The notes beneath the pieces were generated by a model that did no database searches, had not been told where the DNA came from, and saw only the letters and a program-made list of their open reading frames with translations. Shown in pieces: positions 35,732-46,481 of a stretch of DNA of 64,000 bases (positions are counted from its first letter, which is position 1; the number at the start of each line of letters is the position of its first letter). Source of the stretch: Gemmatimonadota bacterium (GTDB lineage Bacteria > Latescibacterota > UBA2968 > UBA8231); contig VXML01000020.1 in assembly GCA_009841115.1 (NCBI GenBank), forward strand, positions 1 through 64,000, in the 5' to 3' direction. The position numbers and the translations under genes were made by a program.

Positions 35732-35755
35732 TGGCCAAAATAATTGAGGACGCCC

Positions 35756-36643
35756 ATGATTACCGATGCGCAATTGGCCCAGTACGAAGAGCAGGGTGCC
35801 GTAACTATCGACAGCCCCTTCACCACCGAGCAGTTGGACCGGGCAGAGGCAGCGTGGGACCGCTTACGCGACAACGGCGGTGCACCGTACGAGGATCCGG
35901 ATTACATCGAAGTTATCCAGCACCCGTACTTTGAGGAGGTGGCCAAGAAGCTACTGCGCGCCGATGCGGTCCATCTGTGGTGGGGTCTGGCCCCCCACGA
36001 GCGGGCTCCGGCCTCAGCGCCGTACGACGATCCCTGCGAGCAGTGGGCGCGCGGCTGCCACGTGGACATCCAGGCCACGCTGGAGGATTTTGAGGCCACC
36101 CCCCGCCGGATGCGGGCCGAGTTGTGGTTCTGGCTCAACGATGTGCCCGCTCATCGCGGCGCCATGCGCATCCTGCCCGGCAGCCACCGTCCCATCATGG
36201 CGCACTGGAGTCGGGTCCTCCGGCCCGAACACAAAGCTGAATTACCCCGCGTGCACGGCCTGCGGCCGGCTCCAGTCCCGTCGACTGCGTCCGCTTTCCC
36301 CGAGTACATCCCGGACCTGGGCGAAAGGCCCTGGCTTGAGTGCGAACCCGTCCCCGCAGTGGCGCGCCGGGGACAGATCCTAGTGCTCTGCAGCGCTGGA
36401 TTGCACTCGGCCTGGCAGAATGAGGACACCGTGCCCCGCAAAGCCATGGGCACCTCGTGGATCGCCGCCGGGGTTTCGGGCGGCCTGCCCAAGAACCAGC
36501 GCGACGCCCTGATGGACTTCTTTCCCCGGCTGCGGTGCCAACTGCGCCCGGACCGCGCCCACATTGTGCCGGATCACTTTGACTGGCTCTTTGAAAGCGA
36601 CTACGATCCGCGCTGGCCGGAGACTTTTCCGCCCTCCCATTGA
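35756..36643 (+). CDS. phytanoyl-CoA dioxygenase family protein
   Basis: A 295-residue Fe(II)/2-oxoglutarate-dependent oxygenase of double-stranded beta-helix fold. The iron ligands are the HVD motif (CHVDIQ near residue 104) and the distal H of SAGLHSAW near 220; FWLNDVPAHRGAMRILPGSHRP near 127-148 (written by its ends FWLND and PGSHRP) is the family signature, with the arginine for 2-oxoglutarate nearby. The TTG at 35744 is in frame, but ATG 35756 with GAGG is preferred. Members hydroxylate small molecules. This group is strongly enlarged in Poribacteria and related phyla, which supports the taxonomic guess. Confidence 0.9.
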   Translation: MITDAQLAQYEEQGAVTIDSPFTTEQLDRAEAAWDRLRDNGGAPYEDPDYIEVIQHPYFEEVAKKLLRADAVHLWWGLAPHERAPASAPYDDPCEQWARGCHVDIQATLEDFEATPRRMRAELWFWLNDVPAHRGAMRILPGSHRPIMAHWSRVLRPEHKAELPRVHGLRPAPVPSTASAFPEYIPDLGERPWLECEPVPAVARRGQILVLCSAGLHSAWQNEDTVPRKAMGTSWIAAGVSGGLPKNQRDALMDFFPRLRCQLRPDRAHIVPDHFDWLFESDYDPRWPETFPPSH

Positions 36644-36692
36644 GCAGTTGTTCCGACCCGCCTATGAGGATTCCGCCCGCTGAGCTTTTCCG

Positions 36693-37823
36693 CTAGCTCC
36701 TCTGGGAGCTCGGCTGGACTTCTGAGACGAAGAAGTCGTCGGGGAGGATGCTCTTGGTCTCGACCCCGTGACTGTACTCGGGCAGCCCGATTGTCGTCAC
36801 CGCGCCCATGGCCGTGAAGTGCTCGCACTCGCCGCTGGCCCCGCTCTTATTGCCCCCTCCGTGGCCGCGCAGCCAGGCGTCGTCGATGACGCGCTCCCCC
36901 TTCCACATGCCTCGGGTGGCATTGAGGTGGCCGAAGCGCGCCAGATCCGAGGCGCTGATGACCACCCAACCCGGGCCGCTGCGCACGACTTGGCCGCCAA
37001 TTTCGTAGGGTGGATCGAGGTAGGTGTACGCATCTGGAATGGTGGGATAGAGATATTTCCGCTCTTTTACTTCGCCGCCGGCGAGCCAGTCCCAGCGCTC
37101 GTACGGGATGCCAATGGCGTCGAACAGGCGCTCCTGGACCACGTCCTTGAGGTCGCGGCCCCAAACGTAGGTCAGCGCTTGACCCAACCGCCAGAAACCG
37201 GCGCTGCTGTACAGCCCCTGGGTGCCCGGTTCGGCATGGGCGTAGCAGTCGTAGAAGGGATCGCCCGTCCAAGTGGCCCATTCGGGGATGCCGGGAACTG
37301 CGTCCCGCTCTTCGAGACCCGTGCGCTGCTCCCGCCAGCGGTTGCCGATTTCAAAGGGAAAGCCACCCCAGTGCAGGCTCTCATCGCGTCGCCCGATCAA
37401 GTGGCGCCAAGTGAGTTTTTGGTGGTGGCCGCAATTGAGGTACTTGTGCTCGTGCGACAGTTGTCCGGCTCCGGTCCAAGTTTGGTGGATCGGCTCGTCC
37501 GGGTCGAGGAGGCCGTCGCCAACGGCCGCGCCCAGCGCTACCCACGTCAGGGCTTTGCCGACCGAGGCCGTCTGATGCCGATAGTGGGGGTCGCCCCAGG
37601 CGTGCATTAGGTATCCGCCGCGCGTGAGCACGGTCCCGTACTGGTTGCCGCTGTGATCCTCGCCGCCAAAGCTCGCCCCTCTGACATCGAGGCTGTCCAG
37701 CCAGGCGGCGAATTTCCGCGCATCGAGACCGGCTGCGGCCGGCGTGATCTGTATCCAGTCGCGATCTGGGTACGCGACCCAGTCCGGTACTTGTATCGTT
37801 ACCGTCGGGGCGATCAGATGCAT
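36693..37823 (-). CDS. serine hydrolase of the beta-lactamase/PBP4* class
   Basis: A 376-residue member of the class C beta-lactamase/esterase family without a signal peptide. The SxxK motif is SVGK (in HQTASVGKALTWV, near residue 88), and a YSS (GLYSSAGFW near 206) replaces the usual YxN. The third motif (HGGGNKSG near 333) is weakly conserved. Probably an esterase or peptidase rather than an antibiotic-resistance enzyme. No Shine-Dalgarno site is seen before the ATG; a promoter with a perfect -10 box lies close upstream. It is convergent with the dioxygenase gene. Confidence 0.82.
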   Translation of the reverse strand: MHLIAPTVTIQVPDWVAYPDRDWIQITPAAAGLDARKFAAWLDSLDVRGASFGGEDHSGNQYGTVLTRGGYLMHAWGDPHYRHQTASVGKALTWVALGAAVGDGLLDPDEPIHQTWTGAGQLSHEHKYLNCGHHQKLTWRHLIGRRDESLHWGGFPFEIGNRWREQRTGLEERDAVPGIPEWATWTGDPFYDCYAHAEPGTQGLYSSAGFWRLGQALTYVWGRDLKDVVQERLFDAIGIPYERWDWLAGGEVKERKYLYPTIPDAYTYLDPPYEIGGQVVRSGPGWVVISASDLARFGHLNATRGMWKGERVIDDAWLRGHGGGNKSGASGECEHFTAMGAVTTIGLPEYSHGVETKSILPDDFFVSEVQPSSQRS

Positions 37824-37846
37824 GGTTCAACTTTTCTGTGTAGTGT

Positions 37847-37877
37847 ATTATAAGAATTTTTTTGGGAGCTTGGTCAA
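37847..37877 (-). promoter_or_regulatory. promoter of the serine-hydrolase gene
   Basis: On the minus strand TTGACC (37872-37877) and a perfect TATAAT (37847-37852) are separated by 19 bases, a slightly wide spacing. The predicted leader to the ATG at 37823 is short, about 17 bases, and has no ribosome binding site. Confidence 0.45.
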
Positions 37878-37930
37878 GGTCGAGCGCATGGGCGACTGCT
37901 GCCCGATGCGCCCGGACACACCGACATCGC

Positions 37931-38821
37931 ATGATCAAACTCGGCTGCAACGCTATGCTGCGGGTCGCCGAAGACCTGCCCTATGCCGACAAGGAAGACC
38001 CGCGCAACTGGCTGGATATCGCCGCCCTGGTGCGCCAGATCCGCGCCTGGGACCTCGACGTGGTCGATTTTCAGCTCTTCCGCGGCTTCCGCGCCCGGGA
38101 CCCGGCCTATCTGCGCTCCATCAAGGCCCTCTGCCAGCAGTGCGGCCTGCCCATTGGCTTTTTGGGCGTGGGCCGCGGCTTTGTCGGCGTCGAGCAGATC
38201 GACGGCCGCCCCCAGGGCGTTGCCCTGCCCCAAGCCGAACGCCGCCGGCGCATTGCCGAAGTCAAAGAGGGCATTGATCTGGCCGCCTTTATGGGCGCGC
38301 CCTTGGTCCGCCTCTTCGGCGGCGGCATCCCCGCCGCAGCCGTCGACCGCCGCGTCCTGTGGCAGGACGCCATTGGCAGCTTCCAAGAGGTCTGCGACTA
38401 CGCCGCCGGCAAAGGCGTGTTCGTCGGCCTCCACAACCACGCCCCGGTCATCGCGCCCACTGGGGACGATATTCTCAAAATACTGCGCGATGTCAACCGC
38501 GAAAACTTCACCTTCATCCTCGACACGGGCTGGTGGCAAGGCTCGCCGGGCGCGGCGCCCTCCGGGGCCGAGGATCCCGCGGTCGACTTCTATGACTTCA
38601 TGGAGCAGACCGCGCCCCACGCCACCTATGTGCGGGCCAAAATATACAAAATTGACCGCGGCCGGGAGGAGTGGCTTGACTATGAGCGCATTGTCGAAAT
38701 TCTCCGCCAAGTCGACTTCAACGGCAATATGTCCATCGTCTTCGAGGGACAGGGCAATAAGGTAAGCGATCTCGAGGCCATTGGCCTGGCCGTCGACTAC
38801 CTGCGGGGATTGCTCGCCTAG
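37931..38821 (+). CDS. sugar phosphate isomerase/epimerase family protein
   Basis: A 296-residue xylose-isomerase-like TIM-barrel protein. The start is ATG 37931, chosen because the open frame before it has no similarity. Characteristic strands include LDVVDFQLFRG near 43, VRLFGGGIP near 128, KGVFVGLHNHAPV near 163 and NFTFILDTGWWQG near 189, where H and D residues of the metal site lie. No ribosome binding site is clear. It differs from the other isomerase at 27898 in sequence. Substrate unknown. The opposite strand has a long but unlikely frame. Confidence 0.8.
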   Translation: MIKLGCNAMLRVAEDLPYADKEDPRNWLDIAALVRQIRAWDLDVVDFQLFRGFRARDPAYLRSIKALCQQCGLPIGFLGVGRGFVGVEQIDGRPQGVALPQAERRRRIAEVKEGIDLAAFMGAPLVRLFGGGIPAAAVDRRVLWQDAIGSFQEVCDYAAGKGVFVGLHNHAPVIAPTGDDILKILRDVNRENFTFILDTGWWQGSPGAAPSGAEDPAVDFYDFMEQTAPHATYVRAKIYKIDRGREEWLDYERIVEILRQVDFNGNMSIVFEGQGNKVSDLEAIGLAVDYLRGLLA

Positions 38822-38835
38822 AAGCGGTTTCATAC

Positions 38836-38970
38836 TCAGGCAATGGCCAGTTCCCGCAGGCGCGCGACCATGGCCCGCCTGCGAGGACCGGCAGTCTCGA
38901 TCAGGTGATCGGTATAGGAGAACGGCCGGATCAGGGCGCGGAATCGGCCGACTTGGAGTGGGGTCAGCAT
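38836..38970 (-). CDS. possible small gene coupled to the hydroxyacid dehydrogenase
   Basis: ATG at 38970 follows the dehydrogenase stop by 3 bases, with GGAGAG just upstream, and opens a 44-codon frame beginning MLTPLQVGRF and ending RLRELAIA. LTPxQVxxFR is a common opening of phytanoyl-CoA dioxygenases, so it may be the remnant of such a gene. Alternatively it is a small coupled peptide gene. The sequence fills most of the 152-base gap between the isomerase and dehydrogenase genes. Confidence 0.3.
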   Translation of the reverse strand: MLTPLQVGRFRALIRPFSYTDHLIETAGPRRRAMVARLRELAIA

Positions 38971-38973
38971 GGT

Positions 38974-40059
38974 CTAACTCTCCGTGGAAAAGTCACTGCC
39001 CCGGCGGTTGGCGATGGAGCGCGGCGTTAGGTCGAAGAGGGTTTCGTGCCCGTGGAAGAAGCGGTTGAGTTCGTCGACCATCAGCTCGAAAAAGCGTGGA
39101 TAGCTCTGTACGGTCACGCCGGCGATGTGAGGGGTGACGAAGACGTTTTCCAAATGGAGGATCTCTTTGTCGCCATAGGCGTTGTCCTCGCCCACATCCG
39201 GGTCGAACACGTCTAGACCGGCGACGATGTCGCCCCGCTTGAGCCGCTTCACTAGTGCATCTGAATCCACTACTTTGCCGCGCGACACATTGACGAACAC
39301 CGCGCCCGGCTGGATTAGGTCTAGCTCTCGTTGCCCGATCATGCGCTCGGTGCGCGGGGTGTGCGGGGCTAGACAGACGATGGCGTCGCACTGCGACATC
39401 ACGTTGTCCAGTGAGGTTTTGAGGAAGCCGATCGCGTCGGCCATCTCCCGCGCCAGATAGGGATCGAACACCCACACTTCGGTCTGGAAGGGGCGCAAAA
39501 ATTGGATTAGCCGCCGGCCAATGTGCCCACAGCCGATCAGGCCGACGCGCTTGCCGGTCAGATCGCCGTGGATGAAGCCAAAGTCGCTTTGCGGACGAGG
39601 GCTCACGTCGCCGGCGATGAGGCGGCGGAATTGGGCTCCGGCGTTGCGCAGGGCAATGATGATGAGCGCCAAGGCCCACTCGGACACTGGATACGACGAG
39701 CCGTTGGTCGTATCGACCGTGCAGACGCCACGCTCCCAAGCGGCCTCGACGTCGATGCGGCTGGCAAAGCGGTCGCCTTCCAACTCGCCGATGATTTTCA
39801 GGTTGGAGGTCTGATCCAAGATTGCGGCATCGATCGTTGGGCAGCCGTGGCAGACGACCAAGCCGTCGTAACCGCTCAGTCGCTCGCCCAGCACCCGGCC
39901 GATCTCGGGATCTGCGTTGGTGTCGTAAATGCCGCCGCCTTCGCATTCGAACCAGTCCCAGTCGGTGAAGGTTTCGAGTCGTGCGAAATCGGTCGCGGCG
40001 AGGTACTGCTCGCGCACGTGCTTGTTGCAGGCGATGAGTATTTGGGGGCGTGAGTTCAT
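38974..40059 (-). CDS. D-isomer-specific 2-hydroxyacid dehydrogenase
   Basis: A 361-residue NAD(P)-dependent oxidoreductase, converting 2-oxo acids and D-2-hydroxyacids. The Rossmann motif is GCGHIGRRL near 185-193. Catalytic residues are R in NVSRGKVVD (near 255), E in the region DPDVGEDN (near 283) and H in VTPHIAGVT (near 305). The N-terminal part shows substrate-binding domain features (VVCHGCPTID). It is the second gene of a minus-strand unit, 15 bases after the deacetylase-like gene. The substrate might be a glyoxylate- or phosphoglycerate-like acid. Confidence 0.9.
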   Translation of the reverse strand: MNSRPQILIACNKHVREQYLAATDFARLETFTDWDWFECEGGGIYDTNADPEIGRVLGERLSGYDGLVVCHGCPTIDAAILDQTSNLKIIGELEGDRFASRIDVEAAWERGVCTVDTTNGSSYPVSEWALALIIIALRNAGAQFRRLIAGDVSPRPQSDFGFIHGDLTGKRVGLIGCGHIGRRLIQFLRPFQTEVWVFDPYLAREMADAIGFLKTSLDNVMSQCDAIVCLAPHTPRTERMIGQRELDLIQPGAVFVNVSRGKVVDSDALVKRLKRGDIVAGLDVFDPDVGEDNAYGDKEILHLENVFVTPHIAGVTVQSYPRFFELMVDELNRFFHGHETLFDLTPRSIANRRGSDFSTES

Positions 40060-40074
40060 GGGGTCGTCTCCGTG

Positions 40075-41325
40075 TTAAGTTGGTTGTTCCACTTCCACTA
40101 ATACTCGGCGTTGAGCTGAGTCAAAGGCGACTAAAGTAGCTCCATCCTCTAGCAGGAAAGTGTCGCTTTTGAAAGCGGCGCGGTTCGAAACTCGCGTCAA
40201 TGGGCGGCCACCCACCCGCACTGAGCGCACCTCTCCGTCTGTAAGGCGCAGAGTCAGGTCAGGGGTCTGCACCGGCAGATCGAGGCGGATGGTGTTACCC
40301 TCTACTGCGATCTCGGCCATTGCGCGGGCGCAGGCATAGGTGGTGATTTGGCTACAGGTGCGCCATTGGGTGCGCTCCCCCCTCGGATCGCGCTCGGCGA
40401 GGCGGCTTACCACTTTCTTGAATGCGTTAAAGCCGCGCCGGTCCTCATCGTGTAGCCCATAGAATCCCTGCCAATGGCTGATGAGTACAGCCGGTTCGCC
40501 CGCGTCGATGAGGGCTGGTAGGCGGCCACCCTCTAAGTCGGGAGTGATGTATTTGTCGGCATTGACCTCGCCATAGCCGGTCCAACTGCCGGTCCAGTCG
40601 CCGGTGGAGGCGATGATTTCGCCGGTGGCTTGGCCGGTTTGGCGATCGGGATACCACACGGGGGTGTCCACTGTGTCTTCCCTAGAGACTCGCTGAAAAA
40701 AGTAAGGCACTCGGTTACCCGTGACTTGGCGCACGGCTTCGCCAGCACAGCGGGCGTAAAAGGGCAGGGTGCGGCCGCCGAAACCACCCGGTGAGGTTAC
40801 TCCTTGCGGCGTCAGGCCCACAGCGACTAGAATGCGGCACGCTTGGGCGATGTACTCGGTGACCAACTCCTCTTGGTCTTCGGGCAGCGCGGCCCAATCG
40901 TATTGCTCCCATATTCTAGAAGGGAGCGGCTGCAAGGTTTTGGGATTTAACACGAACGTGTGGGTGAGCATCTCGGGCGTGATGTCGAAAGCGGGGACGA
41001 TGACCTCGCGGCACATGGTCAGCCATTCGTCTTGCTGGGCTTTGCTAAAAAGAGGAAGTCCCTCGTCAATGCGTCCTAGGGCCGCTGGGCAGGGCACCAC
41101 TGAAAACTTGCCTCGGACGCCGCTTGCTAGGCACCACTCGGCGAATTCGCGGGTAAAGGACTCAGGATGGACCACCGGCAGGTCCTCCCAGCGCTGGGAA
41201 CGGCCCTCGGCGATGGTGCGGTCGCGGAGGAAGAAATAGTTGAGGTTGACCAGCACCGTGGAATCGTCGAAGATGATGGACAAGGGCACTCGATCAAGGG
41301 CGTGACGGGCGATTTCAGCGAACAG
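40075..41325 (-). CDS. polysaccharide-deacetylase-like protein, possibly starting at CTG
   Basis: About 416 residues from the preferred start. An acidic pair at IIFDDSTVLVN near residue 16, FSVVPCP near 72 and GVTSPGGFGG near 178 match NodB-type catalytic barrels, so a deacetylase-like or carbohydrate-esterase-like role is possible, but the metal histidines are not obvious. A perfect AAAGGAGGT site (41331-41339 in reverse) lies 6 bases before a CTG codon at 41323-41325. The only earlier start is a TTG at 41349, placed upstream of this site, and no ATG or GTG is near. The first gene of a three-gene unit. Confidence 0.6.
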   Translation of the reverse strand: MFAEIARHALDRVPLSIIFDDSTVLVNLNYFFLRDRTIAEGRSQRWEDLPVVHPESFTREFAEWCLASGVRGKFSVVPCPAALGRIDEGLPLFSKAQQDEWLTMCREVIVPAFDITPEMLTHTFVLNPKTLQPLPSRIWEQYDWAALPEDQEELVTEYIAQACRILVAVGLTPQGVTSPGGFGGRTLPFYARCAGEAVRQVTGNRVPYFFQRVSREDTVDTPVWYPDRQTGQATGEIIASTGDWTGSWTGYGEVNADKYITPDLEGGRLPALIDAGEPAVLISHWQGFYGLHDEDRRGFNAFKKVVSRLAERDPRGERTQWRTCSQITTYACARAMAEIAVEGNTIRLDLPVQTPDLTLRLTDGEVRSVRVGGRPLTRVSNRAAFKSDTFLLEDGATLVAFDSAQRRVLVEVEQPT

Positions 41326-41366
41326 GGGACACCTCCTTTGTTGTAACAATCTGCCATTCGGCGTCT

Positions 41367-41394
41367 AATATACTATGCTGTGTTGCCGTGACAA
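41367..41394 (-). promoter_or_regulatory. promoter of the deacetylase/dehydrogenase operon
   Basis: On the minus strand TTGTCA (41389-41394) and TATATT (41367-41372) are separated by 16 bases; each matches consensus in five of six positions. The strong AAAGGAGGT site follows 28 bases downstream. This argues that the operon is active and that translation starts near 41325. Confidence 0.55.
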
Positions 41395-41472
41395 AAACTG
41401 CATCCAATGGGGTAAATTAATCTCGTACTGGCTAGGGTTGAACTCTGATTTGCTAGACGGAGGATGCGACCG

Positions 41473-44133
41473 GTGACCAGTCGCCCGCGCGCCGCCGTGC
41501 GCCTCGCCGGTGCGGCCCTGCTGCTCAGTGGCTTGGCTTTCAATCCGCTGTCCCTCGCGCATTTTTTCCCGGGGCATCCGCTTGGTATCGAGGGTATCAT
41601 CGTCCTGCAGATTGCCTTGCTCTTTGGCGGCGGTTGGCTCGTTTGGCGATGTCCTCGGCTGCCGCTGATTTCCATTGCCCTCGTTGCCCTCGTCTTTGGC
41701 ACGTTTGCCGTCCTCGGGGGATACGGCACGATCCGCTCACTGCAAAAGGTGCAGGAACGCAACCGGCTCTTGGCGACTATTGACCGCAGCGAAGCGGTGC
41801 AGCAGCACCTGAGCGGCGAGGCTCTGCCGCTGCTTGCCTTGGGGATGTACCAAGGTCAACTGCCCGCTGCGCCGGCTCGCGCGCTTTTTGCCCCTGCGGT
41901 TGATGTTGCGGACGTGGAGCAGACGGCAGAGGCGACCGAAGTAGTCCCGGCGCTGGGCATTAAGCGCAAGCGATGGCGGATTTTACCCACTGAGCAATTC
42001 CACGGTTCCGACATTCAACTATGGGAGCCGCTTTTTGCCGCGATGCGTTCCTGTGATTATGCGGCCTTCCACATTGAGACCGGGCATTTTCTCGACGCGG
42101 AAGAGGCAATATACCAAGCCCGTGTGCGCTTTGACGCCCTAGCACAGACACAAGACGGGGAGCGCGCGCAAATACTGGCTCGGCTGGTGCTTGACTGGCA
42201 GCGGCAGGAAGATGACACTTGGCGGATTCGACGCTGGGAGACCGAATCGCTGGAGATGCTCACGCGGGAATACGCGCTGTTTGCCGAAGTACTCGACGAG
42301 GCGCTCCCGCGCGACGAGGACCGCGCCCAGGCTAGGTTTTCGCGCCACGCCGAACTGGTGCGCCAGTCGTTTAGCGACTCCGCGTTCGTCGCGCCGCATC
42401 GCTATTTCACTCGTCAGGCATTTGACCGCCATCCCGGCATCAGCGTCGTGGATATCGACGCCGATGGGTACGACGACCTGTACATTGCCGTGCGCCAGGG
42501 TCGGAACATGCTGTTGCACAACGGCGGCGATGGCACGTTCACCGAGCGCGCGGCCCAATACGGCCTTGATGTGGAGCACCACACGGCTGCTGCGCTTTTC
42601 GCCGACTTTGACAACGACGGTGACCCGGATGTATTCCTCGGCCGCACGCTTGCGCCCAGTCTTTACTTGGTCAACGAGGACGGGCACTTCGCTTCCCGCG
42701 ACTTAGGCGATGGCGTCTTGCCGTTCCTCGTGGCCTCGATCTCGGCGGCCGATTACAACGGCGACGGTCTGCTCGATGCGTACTTTTCCACGTATGCCGC
42801 GCGGATGTTGCTCGCCGCGGCCCCCTCCGCGTCCCGAACTGATTCTTGGGGAGGCGCGCTATTGGCCGACTTCCTGTCTGCGGACCACGCTCGCGCGCTC
42901 TACGACCTGAGCCGCGACCGCATCGGCCACCTTATCTACGACGCGCCAGGGCCGCCCAACGTCCTGCTGCGCAATCTTGGTGACGGTCGCTTCGCTGCAA
43001 CTGCCGCTGTGTGGCGCAATACGTTACAGGCGACTTGGGCCGACTACGACCGCGACGGCGACCCGGATCTCTATCTCGCCAATGACTTTGCCGCTAACAA
43101 CTTGCTCCGTAACGACGGTGGTGCCCTCGTTGATGTTACCGCGGAGAGCGGGGCCGCGGATCCGGGCTTTGGCATGGGCGCGAGTTGGGCCGATTACGAC
43201 GGGGACGGTCGCCAAGACCTGTACGTGACCAACATGCACAGCAGCGCTGGTCGCCGCATCACGGAAGCCGCCGGGCGGGCGGGTGCGGCGTTTGCCCCTT
43301 TGGCCCGGGGCAACTCCCTCCTGCGGAACGGCAGTGAGGGTTTCACCCTCGTTGCAGACTCGCCGGTGGAGGATGGCGGCTGGGGCTGGGGCGGCCAGTT
43401 TTTGGACTTTGATAACGACGGAGATCTCGACATCTACGCTCTTAGTGGCTACTACACCCCGCCGTCCGAAGTCGCTCTCCCCGAGGATACCTGAAGCCTG
43501 TTTTGGCGCACGGTCGTGCGTCATGGCCGGACGGATGGGGCGTACAATGTGGGGGCGCGGCTCGACGCGGGGGCCTCGCTTAGCGGATACCAGCGCAACC
43601 GCTTCTTTCTCAATGTAGAAGGTCGCGACTTTATCGATATATCGGGTTTGTCGGCAGCGGATTCGCCTGCGGATGGTCGCGCCTTCGCTACCTTGGACTT
43701 TGACCGCGATGGGCGCATTGATTTGGCTGTCGTCAATGCCAACGAGCCGCTCTGCGAGCTGTTTGCCAACCGCAGCAAGGCGGGGCACGTCCTCGCGTTG
43801 CGGTTTGTGGGGGGTAACGACCGCGACGAGATTTCGCGCGAATGGAGCGTGCGCGATGGGTATGGCGTGCAAGTGGAAGTGGATGTCGGCGGGAGGACGC
43901 TGTTGCGCGAGCACCGAGCCGGCGAGGGCTTCTCGGCCCAAAACAGCGCTACCTTGCTCGTCGGCTTAGGCGCACATCAACGAGCGGATGCCGTGCACGT
44001 GCGTTGGCCTTCGGGGCGCGCGCAGCAGGTTGCAGAAGTCGCCGCTGGTATGCTGGTGACAGTCTATGAAAACCCTCGGTACTCGCCTACGGAGGCGGCG
44101 TTTGTGGTGGTGCCGTACCGTAGGACGCCGTAA
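41473..44133 (+). CDS. large FG-GAP/UnbV (CRTAC1-type) protein with in-frame TGA, candidate selenoprotein
   Basis: One frame of 887 codons runs from GTG 41473 to TAA 44131-44133, interrupted only by TGA at 43492-43494 (codon 674). The GTG has GGAGG 9 bases upstream, the ATG at 41464 abuts it and is less likely. The N-terminus has three membrane segments (to about residue 85), then a helical part, then FG-GAP loops (DIDADGYDDLYI, DFDNDGDPDVFL, DYDGDGRQDLYV, DFDNDGDLDIYA). Past the TGA come SLFWRTVV, another FG-GAP loop (DFDRDGRIDLAV) and the UnbV domain (VRWPSGRAQQV). Both halves are needed for a typical family member, so either readthrough as selenocysteine or a nonsense mutation. The TGA is followed by a SECIS-like hairpin. 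Other genes here use TGA as stop, so the genetic code is standard. Confidence 0.75.
43492..43527 (+). promoter_or_regulatory. candidate bacterial SECIS element 3' of the in-frame TGA
   Basis: TGA (43492-43494) is followed by 17 bases, then the apical loop GGTC (43512-43515) closed by an 8-bp stem (43504-43511 with 43516-43523, one G-T pair). A GCC at 43496-43498 can pair with GGC at 43525-43527 as a lower stem. The bacterial SECIS model asks for an apical loop 16-37 bases after the UGA, a guanine in the first two loop bases and an upper stem of at least 4 bp; all hold. The loop GGUC is part of the E. coli fdhF loop AGGUCU. The bulged U of fdhF is not seen. Confidence 0.55.
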
Positions 44134-44219
44134 TTTCAGGACGCTTGACAGGAATATGGCTGCCATTGCAACGGTGCTGCCATCGCAGGTTCACCTAGTA
44201 ACTTCAGGAGGTATAAAAA

Positions 44220-44945
44220 ATGGTTGTTAATGTTGCTCATAGGGGTGCGTCGGGAAACTATCCCGAAAATACGTTGATCGCCTTTCAGAAGGCGTTGGAA
44301 ATTGGCGTTGATGAGATTGAGCTGGATCTCCACATGACAAAGGATGACCATCTAATTGTCATGCACGACTCAACCGTAGAGCGAACGACAGATGGCACGG
44401 GCGCGATTGCCGAACTCACACTAGCTGAAATCAAAGCCCTTGACGCCGGAAGCGTGTTTGGTGAGCAGTTTCGGGGTGAGCGCGTGCCGACATGGGAGGA
44501 AGCATTAGACCTCGTACAAGGGAAGGTTAGACTCAATGTCCACCTCAAAGAAGGGGGCAATCCAGACGGTCACTACGAACGCAAAGCTGCACAGGCATTG
44601 CACGAGTTTCAGATGGTAGAGGCTTCTATTTTGGCATGCAACGATGAAAGCGTTGGAATTTTTGCCGAGATTGACTCGCAGATTGAGTGCCGGCTCTTTC
44701 GCGCGGATCGCACACCAGAGGAATACATCCGAAAATCGGTAGAGATGGGGCTGCGGACGATGCAGCCGGGACGGGACATCACGACCCGGGAGTTTGTGCA
44801 AAAGGCCCATGCGGCAGGACGAGTTGTGCACGTCTTCTATGCGGATACCCCTGAAGATATGCGAGCTTACATCGAGATCGGCGTCGATGGGATTTTGACG
44901 AACTATCCGGAACGACTGAAGGCGGTTCTCACAGAAATTGAGTAG
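44220..44945 (+). CDS. glycerophosphodiester phosphodiesterase
   Basis: A 241-residue TIM-barrel phosphodiesterase that releases glycerol 3-phosphate from deacylated phospholipids. The family signatures are HRGASGNYPENT (6-17, with catalytic H6) and EIELDLHMTKDDHLIVMHD (metal-binding E-D and catalytic histidine near 54; quoted here by its parts EIELDLHM and IVMHD). The C-terminal IGVDGILTNYPERL strand is complete. No signal peptide, so it acts in the cytoplasm. An AGGAGG site precedes the ATG. A single-gene unit after the FG-GAP gene. Confidence 0.92.
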   Translation: MVVNVAHRGASGNYPENTLIAFQKALEIGVDEIELDLHMTKDDHLIVMHDSTVERTTDGTGAIAELTLAEIKALDAGSVFGEQFRGERVPTWEEALDLVQGKVRLNVHLKEGGNPDGHYERKAAQALHEFQMVEASILACNDESVGIFAEIDSQIECRLFRADRTPEEYIRKSVEMGLRTMQPGRDITTREFVQKAHAAGRVVHVFYADTPEDMRAYIEIGVDGILTNYPERLKAVLTEIE

Positions 44946-44959
44946 AGGGGGCCGCCTCG

Positions 44960-46348
44960 TCATACTAACTTTTTGAACACAAAAGCTCCCAATTCGTAGC
45001 TTATTACGCGATCATCGTCGTCAAATGTAAAGAGGGCGATTTCCCCGGCTGCACGACCTTCGCGAACAAGCCATTCCTCTTCCTTGTCCGTCGGTTCGAG
45101 GACTGCCGGGGCGTGTAGGGAATACGCAGACCCACCGTGAGCCGCAAGCCGCAGGCTGCCGTCGCGCACCTCAAGGTCCACATCAATGCCCGGCTCGGCG
45201 CGATAGTAACCGACAAAGCGCCGCAATGCCTCTGGTGTTGGTTCAAGCGCTGGCTGCTCGGGTACAAGCGGCACTGCTTCGTCGGCATTTAGTACCATTT
45301 CAAGCACTTCTTGGGCAATCTCAAGACCTCCGGGCGGGGGCCACATGTTGATGAGAACAACCACGCCGGTTTTCCGCGGAACGTTAAACCACACCTGTGT
45401 GCCAAAGCCGTGGATCCCGCCACCGTGATTGTGATAGACATGGTCGCCGATGCGGGTTGCTCGCCAGCCTAGACATTGCCCTGCCGACCAGTCCGATTCG
45501 ACGTATTGCGGTTGTTGAATCTCCACCAGTGTTGATCCCTTGAGTACCTGTGCCCCGCGGCGATCTCCGCCGTCGGTTTGGAATTGGAACGATACCCACT
45601 TTGCCAAGTCGCCAACGGTGGAATGCAGTTGTCCCGCGGCTGAAATCCCGTTCAGGTGGGCGTAAGGAGCGCGTTCAGGGCGGTCTTGGTAGGGCGTCGG
45701 GTTATAACCGACAAAGAAGTGAGGACGCAATTCGTCCGTCAGGTCGAAAACCGTGGACGCTAGGCCGAGCGGCTCAATGATATTGGCGTGGACGTATTCG
45801 ATGTATGGCGTGCCGGTGAGCCGATACACCACCTCGCCGAGTAACCCAAATGCAAGGTTTGAGTATTTGAAAGCGGAGTCCTGCGGGATGACAATCCCCG
45901 TCTCCGGCAGTTTGCCAAGCATCTCCTCGCGGCTGGGGAAGTCGAGATCATTCCAACCGTGCGTCGGCGACTCGGTGACTAAGCCGGAGCGGTGTGTCAG
46001 CAATCGTCGGAGCGTCACACCATTGACATCGCCGCGGATAGTGCGAACTGAAGCAAATTCGGGGATGTGCTGTGCTAGTGGATCGTCCAACTTGAGTTGT
46101 CCCGCATCCCGCAACTGCATAATCGCAGTTGTAGTGAACGTCTTGGTCACTGAGGCGATGCGGGCAATCGTGCTTTCAGTAGGCTTTTTGCCCGAATCGA
46201 GATCCGCTGCACCGAACCCGCCGAACCAAGCGAGTCCTTGGTCACGGATGATGCCGAGTGCCATACCGGGCAGTCTATACTTGGCGACCGTTGTTGCTGC
46301 CAAGCGTTCGATGGCTGGTATCAAAGTTTGGAGAACACAATCTGCCAT
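44960..46348 (-). CDS. serine hydrolase of the class C beta-lactamase/esterase family
   Basis: A 462-residue protein. The start is ATG 46348, since the earlier 34 codons are unlike the family. Motifs are SVTK (ASVTKTF near residue 66), YSN (KYSNLAFG near 160) and HGG (NHGGGIHGFG near 305), all intact. A C-terminal extension (from about 370) forms a small beta-barrel, as in peptidases and esterases of this family. No clear signal peptide. Likely a D-aminopeptidase or esterase; resistance is not implied. It is the last minus-strand gene before the convergent phosphodiesterase. Confidence 0.88.
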   Translation of the reverse strand: MADCVLQTLIPAIERLAATTVAKYRLPGMALGIIRDQGLAWFGGFGAADLDSGKKPTESTIARIASVTKTFTTTAIMQLRDAGQLKLDDPLAQHIPEFASVRTIRGDVNGVTLRRLLTHRSGLVTESPTHGWNDLDFPSREEMLGKLPETGIVIPQDSAFKYSNLAFGLLGEVVYRLTGTPYIEYVHANIIEPLGLASTVFDLTDELRPHFFVGYNPTPYQDRPERAPYAHLNGISAAGQLHSTVGDLAKWVSFQFQTDGGDRRGAQVLKGSTLVEIQQPQYVESDWSAGQCLGWRATRIGDHVYHNHGGGIHGFGTQVWFNVPRKTGVVVLINMWPPPGGLEIAQEVLEMVLNADEAVPLVPEQPALEPTPEALRRFVGYYRAEPGIDVDLEVRDGSLRLAAHGGSAYSLHAPAVLEPTDKEEEWLVREGRAAGEIALFTFDDDDRVISYELGAFVFKKLV

Positions 46349-46481
46349 TTGCTTTCCCAAATCCCACGGGCTGCCAATCACGCATCCCGTACGCGAATGC
46401 AGCCAACGCCGCGCCCTATGATCAATCCAGTGCCACCGGGTCGCCGCCACGTGAGTTACGCTGGCGCAAGGGACTCATGGA

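Follow-up and report, generated by a model that had tools for sequence, protein, structure and literature searches.

Does a TGA in the middle of an FG-GAP/UnbV gene end the protein, or is it read as selenocysteine (Sec)? The question is raised by a gene within a 64,000-nucleotide stretch of DNA (the window) from a sponge-associated bacterium, a relative of Latescibacterota. A preliminary description, made from the letters alone, had proposed a continuous frame with a single TGA at codon 674, followed by a SECIS-like hairpin. Our analysis indicates that the in-frame UGA is almost certainly read as Sec, and comparisons between homologous sequences strongly support decoding at this codon. We assign a probability of about 0.95 to the reading that this is a CRTAC1-type selenoprotein gene of a large family, in which UGA 674 is decoded as Sec by SelA, SelB, SelC and SelD together with the hairpin, and whose product has an exported redox role.

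Translation confirms the frame: positions 41473-44133 comprise 887 codons with one internal TGA and a final TAA (Table 1), and the protein has 886 or 889 residues according to the start chosen. The GTG start is plausible because a GGAGG lies 9 nt 5' of it. All FG-GAP and UnbV/ASPIC matches of the window protein exceed the Pfam cut-offs (FG-GAP_3, 5.5e-37; FG-GAP, 2.3e-21), and the protein matches human CRTAC1 (cartilage acidic protein 1, PDB 9etn) with an E-value of 2.6e-14. Its N-terminal hydrophobic segments are probably a membrane anchor. AlphaFold models have a mean pLDDT of 49.7 for this protein and 38.4 for L060, with values of ~20-25 around the Sec site that are too poor to place the Sec loop.

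Table 1. Features of the candidate selenoprotein gene in the window.
Feature	Position	Strand	Details
UGA-containing open frame, putative selenoprotein gene	41464..44133	+	start GTG 41473 or ATG 41464
Hydrophobic N-terminal segments	41479..41715	+	sequence; low-confidence predicted helices
FG-GAP repeat region (part), 5' of the Sec site	42451..43245	+	residues ~330-594; Pfam
Codons for the conserved Sec-site motif EDT-U-SLFWR	43483..43509	+	A1 alignment
TGA, putative Sec codon	43492..43494	+	Sec674 from GTG 41473; 677 from ATG 41464
Bacterial SECIS-type hairpin	43504..43523	+	8-bp stem; loop GGTC 43512-43515
UnbV/ASPIC domain	43858..44049	+	residues 799-862; Pfam PF07593, 8.3e-15

The gene appears to stand alone. 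Its neighbours (35744-46450) encode unrelated PhyH, beta-lactamase-type, TIM barrel, 2-hydroxyacid dehydrogenase and GDPD proteins, and neither a redox partner nor an operon was found among the neighbouring window genes. A plasmid search returned only Streptomyces and Alteromonas matches of <60% identity, the ten listed all being annotated CRTAC1, and an Rfam scan of the window gave no match. The other genes of the window stop at TGA, TAG or TAA; since ordinary genes end in TGA, a general reassignment of UGA is ruled out.

Conservation of the TGA and of the downstream hairpin

The TGA is conserved far beyond the source genome. In a comparison with 60 relatives, a single in-frame TGA at the site is common to all close orthologues (77-98% identical in the queried part) and to all members of a paralogous group with 38-43% identity and the motif KDT-U-SLFWRHVL, so that the codon is kept in all 13 close and paralogous members from Latescibacterota. 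The named relatives are Latescibacterota MAGs and two Pirellulaceae, and the genes of the latter two share the TGA position (SGYYTAPSDIAVDMDL-U-SNYWRTVV). We then scanned Latescibacterota and a sample of Planctomycetota with a profile (A1) built from Sec members, for which reason the ratio of Sec to non-Sec forms leans towards Sec, and fetched ~100 regions for the count at the site column. The profile matched 14 of the 64 genomes from the phylum of the window and 85 of the 392 Planctomycetota genomes sampled; a planctomycete genome has up to seven matches, almost every one of which contains exactly one TGA. In total, 129 distinct homologues from the two phyla, down to ~38% identity, have TGA at the column corresponding to codon 674. 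The family motif at the site is [KED]D[TL]-U-S-x-[FYW]-W-R, and the strict-motif set (n=138) contains 123 TGA, four Asn, three each of Glu, Ala and Arg, one Asp and one Cys. TAA and TAG were never found at this position in the homologues aligned there. A comparison of seven orthologues gave a dN/dS of 0.141 for the part 5' of the TGA and of 0.117 for the part 3' of it; the low second value implies that the downstream part is translated in the same frame.

Additional Sec subfamilies lie outside the A1 profile (L269-L274 and L276), with the motifs PDY-U-THFWR, accompanied by a TlpA domain, EDL-U-VPFW and VDC-U-TFYWRQV; the family is thus larger than counted. In several planctomycetes, Sec genes form tandem clusters of two or three copies separated by a few kb (L209, L210, L269-L271). 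Two loci are irregular. L072 (G081:C78) has two extra in-frame TGAs within ~25 codons after the Sec site (DAL*AEA*GHLA), the remaining protein being intact, TlpA domain included; these are either additional Sec codons or an assembly error. L016 (G014:C9:38032-38546) reads KDT*SLFWRHVL with the TGA, followed by a frameshift and by a TAA in the downstream piece, which points either to a selenoprotein gene in decay or to a faulty assembly.

The hairpin (TGGCGCAC-GGTC-GTGCGTCA) was found as first described, its loop beginning 17 nt from the TGA. One of its eight pairs is G-U, its predicted energy is -11.6 kcal/mol, and a longer fold predicted for the region includes it. It had been said to comply with the rules for bacterial SECIS elements, with two reservations, the missing bulged U and the chance formation of a stem. 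The hairpin does lack a bulged U, but none is called for by the published bSECIS consensus (PMC13188914). The second reservation did not hold when we applied the rules of the same source to 86 non-redundant TGA members. First, the window hairpin fits the strict model, as do 72 of the 86 members against 12% of synonymous-codon shuffles, and most failures score -7.1 to -7.4, next to the limit of -7.5. Second, the minimum free energy of nucleotides 12-32 averages -10.45, compared with -5.56 in the shuffles, with p < 0.05 in 61/86 members. Third, the geometry is constrained: the distance from the TGA to the start of the loop is 17 or 18 nt in 78/86, and the stem adopts one of two registers (pairs i+j = 44 or 43, with the T of TGA as 0), slid registers being much weaker except for register 41 in some members. 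Fourth, paired positions covary (19-25: AT, GC, GT, TA; 18-26: CG, GC; 17-27: CG, GT, AT, GC, TA), and the loop is conserved, with G21 in 84/86 and T22 in 86/86. Where neither register applies, a different local hairpin is still possible: by inspection, L067 has CTCGGTC-GTG-GACCGAG and L195 keeps the GGTC loop at a shifted position. In contrast, hairpins are no stronger than in shuffles in the 15 homologues that have lost the TGA and have Asn, Arg, Glu, Asp, Ala or Cys instead (mean -3.48 against -3.35 when shuffled; 0/15 significant). Given the TGA in 129 homologues and a structure beyond that of synonymous shuffles, the hairpin is more than a product of chance.

Non-Sec forms and the C-terminal CxxC domain

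The alignment at codon 674, which the preliminary description had named as a check, revealed Cys in a paralogous clade of the source genome (L221) and of planctomycetes, and Asn, Arg, Glu, Asp or Ala in a minority of homologues. The Cys paralogue, NGHLSGETAQDYCTTFWTHDIY (L221-L226), is present in the source genome and in five genomes of the same genus. With a short peptide, partly typed from the consensus, as the query, its relatives were found in eight planctomycete genomes: the site is Cys in five of them (G137, G293, G158, G235, G313) and Asp in G357, the copies in G127 and G065 staying outside this count because their site was not placed by the pattern. Only two of these eight genomes have selB above threshold. 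The Sec paralogues L269-L274 (PDY-U-THFWRQV) line up directly with DY-C-TxFW, and by their aligned motifs DYCTxFW and DYUTxFW are a classic Sec/Cys pair. Yet the replacements within the close family are mostly not Cys, and Asn, Arg, Glu, Asp or Ala in its place is unusual for selenoproteins. Because the members with these residues have neither the hairpin nor the C-terminal CxxC domain described below, we regard them as secondary losses. On a tree of 104 rows, roughly six switches between the Sec and non-Sec states are required, five or more of them on supported branches.

A CxxC motif, typically WATWCxxC, lies in a C-terminal extension of 103 of the 121 TGA members whose 3' end is within the locus and of none of the 15 non-TGA members. 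Pfam and NCBIfam classify this extension, in the members scanned, as AhpC-TSA/Redoxin and mostly as TlpA/ResA-type. Among independent pairs, the loss of Sec accompanies the absence of CxxC in 4.6 of 5, with 0 opposite cases and a median p of 0.06; with only about five such pairs, significance is out of reach for this link. Lipobox-like or hydrophobic N-termini are frequent in the family, which makes export of these proteins likely. The idea that Sec occurs in FG-GAP/UnbV proteins, advanced beforehand for a single gene, is supported, and this gene belongs to a multi-copy family present in two phyla, whose members mostly have a redox domain.

The most likely role of this new selenoprotein family is that of exported seleno-redox proteins. 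SelA, SelB, SelC and SelD, guided by the hairpin that follows 17 nt after the codon, would decode UGA 674 as Sec in an exported or membrane-anchored protein, where the selenol on a propeller loop would carry out redox chemistry or, alternatively, bind an electrophilic or metal ligand. The fused CxxC domain may then recycle the selenol by selenenyl-sulfide exchange. Since neither the window protein nor its close orthologues have this domain, though their clade is Sec-positive, the redox mechanism is weaker for this clade; there, recycling of Sec would fall to an unfused TlpA-type protein. A selenoprotein in which Sec is a ligand of a metal or cofactor in the propeller, and not a redox residue, would agree with the lack of the CxxC domain in the window clade, with the binding of metal ions by FG-GAP proteins, and with Asn, Asp and Glu being among the replacements, but we consider it unlikely given that a Cys clade exists and that the CxxC domain accompanies most Sec members and no non-Sec member. 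On the boldest reading, to which we give even chances, a major class of selenoenzymes has escaped notice: FG-GAP/UnbV propellers that are exported, have a catalytic Sec loop recycled by the fused TlpA domain, occur in multiple copies per genome in many Planctomycetota, and catalyse a redox reaction not yet assigned to any enzyme.

Sec machinery and other readings of the codon

The source genome (G000; 6.16 Mb in 112 contigs, 94.6% complete) contains all four genes to be expected of a Sec-decoding bacterium: selB (343 bits), selA (566 bits), selD (375 bits), and a tRNA-Sec (selC) with anticodon TCA. Its selD (L051, G000:C110) has an in-frame TGA of its own near the N-terminus and is probably itself a selenoprotein gene, as in other bacteria. 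Across planctomycetes, selB was detected in 79/85 genomes with the family and in 153/307 without it (Fisher p 1.7e-14, a statistic that ignores phylogeny), and the six family genomes without detected selB all have a tRNA-Sec with anticodon TCA. In Latescibacterota, every genome matching A1 has selB except G015, a fragmented assembly (87% complete) with a TGA member, in which neither selB nor tRNA-Sec was found.

The occurrence of the TGA together with SelB or tRNA-Sec speaks against the possibility that it is a true stop, the downstream part being a separate protein translated from an internal start, e.g. GTG 43516, or a decaying remnant. An in-frame GTG does lie 24 nt after the TGA, and 59 of 86 non-redundant members have a start-type codon there; however, it is missing in the other 27, and only 5/86 have a start near a Shine-Dalgarno-like sequence. 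Coding constraint does not differ between the two sides of the codon, TAA and TAG never take the place of TGA at the site, and homologues without TGA read straight through, all of which makes a true stop very improbable. To much the same small degree we credit a programmed readthrough of UGA that inserts Trp, Arg or another ordinary residue and yields two isoforms, with the hairpin as a stimulator instead of a SECIS. The ordinary residues found at the site in some homologues would suit such a mechanism, but Trp occurs in none of them, and all non-Sec members also lack the CxxC domain. Moreover, the geometry of the hairpin and its G-U at the loop fit a SelB-type element, the family tracks the Sec machinery, and Cys homologues are mainly found in genomes without detected selB. 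Finally, a single stop in one MAG may resemble a sequencing error or a genome-specific pseudogene, and a broken copy exists elsewhere (L016), but this reading is already refuted: every same-genus orthologue found and over 100 homologues from another phylum share the TGA, and dN/dS is low on both sides. None of the three grounds for rejection set beforehand, concerning the machinery, the aligned residue and an erroneous TGA, refuted the reading of the codon as Sec.

Relation to known proteins and significance

The decoding mechanism is standard, and the new family falls within the known UGA/SECIS/SelB kind. The window protein shares the order of FG-GAP followed by UnbV/ASPIC with human CRTAC1 and the bacterial proteins annotated 'CRTAC1 family protein'; it differs from them in the in-frame UGA with a SECIS in DT-U-SLFWR, and most of its relatives add the C-terminal TlpA domain. 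SBP1/SELENBP1 (methanethiol oxidase) is a selenium-linked protein for which a beta-propeller has been reported, and in this respect it may resemble the new family, but it is not known to have a UGA-encoded Sec. The UGC-containing TlpA/ResA-like selenoproteins (WAxxUGC; NCBIfam NF041054) have the exported TlpA/ResA-type fold shared by most family members, whereas the TlpA domain of the new family has an ordinary CxxC and its Sec is located in the propeller, hundreds of residues upstream. Glycine reductase selenoprotein A, unrelated in protein and fold, has been cited as a selenoprotein without Cys homologues (PMC12013277); Cys forms are also rare in the new family, which does, however, have a small Cys-type clade.

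FG-GAP/UnbV/CRTAC1 proteins are not among the 119 catalogued families of prokaryotic selenoproteins (2026; PMC13188914, Table 1), and 0 families of NCBIfam 20.0 match the window protein. Literature searches combining CRTAC1, FG-GAP, UnbV or ASPIC with selenium gave no relevant paper, the planctomycete candidates in S9 Table of PMC4807772 lying outside this comparison and possibly including an unnamed earlier sighting; those on selenium in Planctomycetota, Latescibacter, beta-propellers and new selenoprotein families returned general papers only. The deep-Sep method filters candidates by Cys homologues (PMC12013277), and the rarity of Cys forms under pipelines with this requirement is the likely reason why the family was missed. 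In some taxa, FG-GAP 'CRTAC1 family' genes flank homologues of the genes for anammox hydrazine synthase subunits (PMC12758564).

Our results add a large family of selenoproteins, from a class of proteins that is not listed among the known prokaryotic selenoproteins. They also expose a blind spot of filters based on Cys homologues, since most non-Sec homologues here have Asn, Arg, Glu or Ala. Annotation may readily truncate such genes or split them at the UGA, which would mask both their product and the bacterial demand for selenium. For bacterial CRTAC1/ASPIC proteins with a Sec loop, the pairing of Sec with a CxxC domain provides a first testable biochemical hypothesis.
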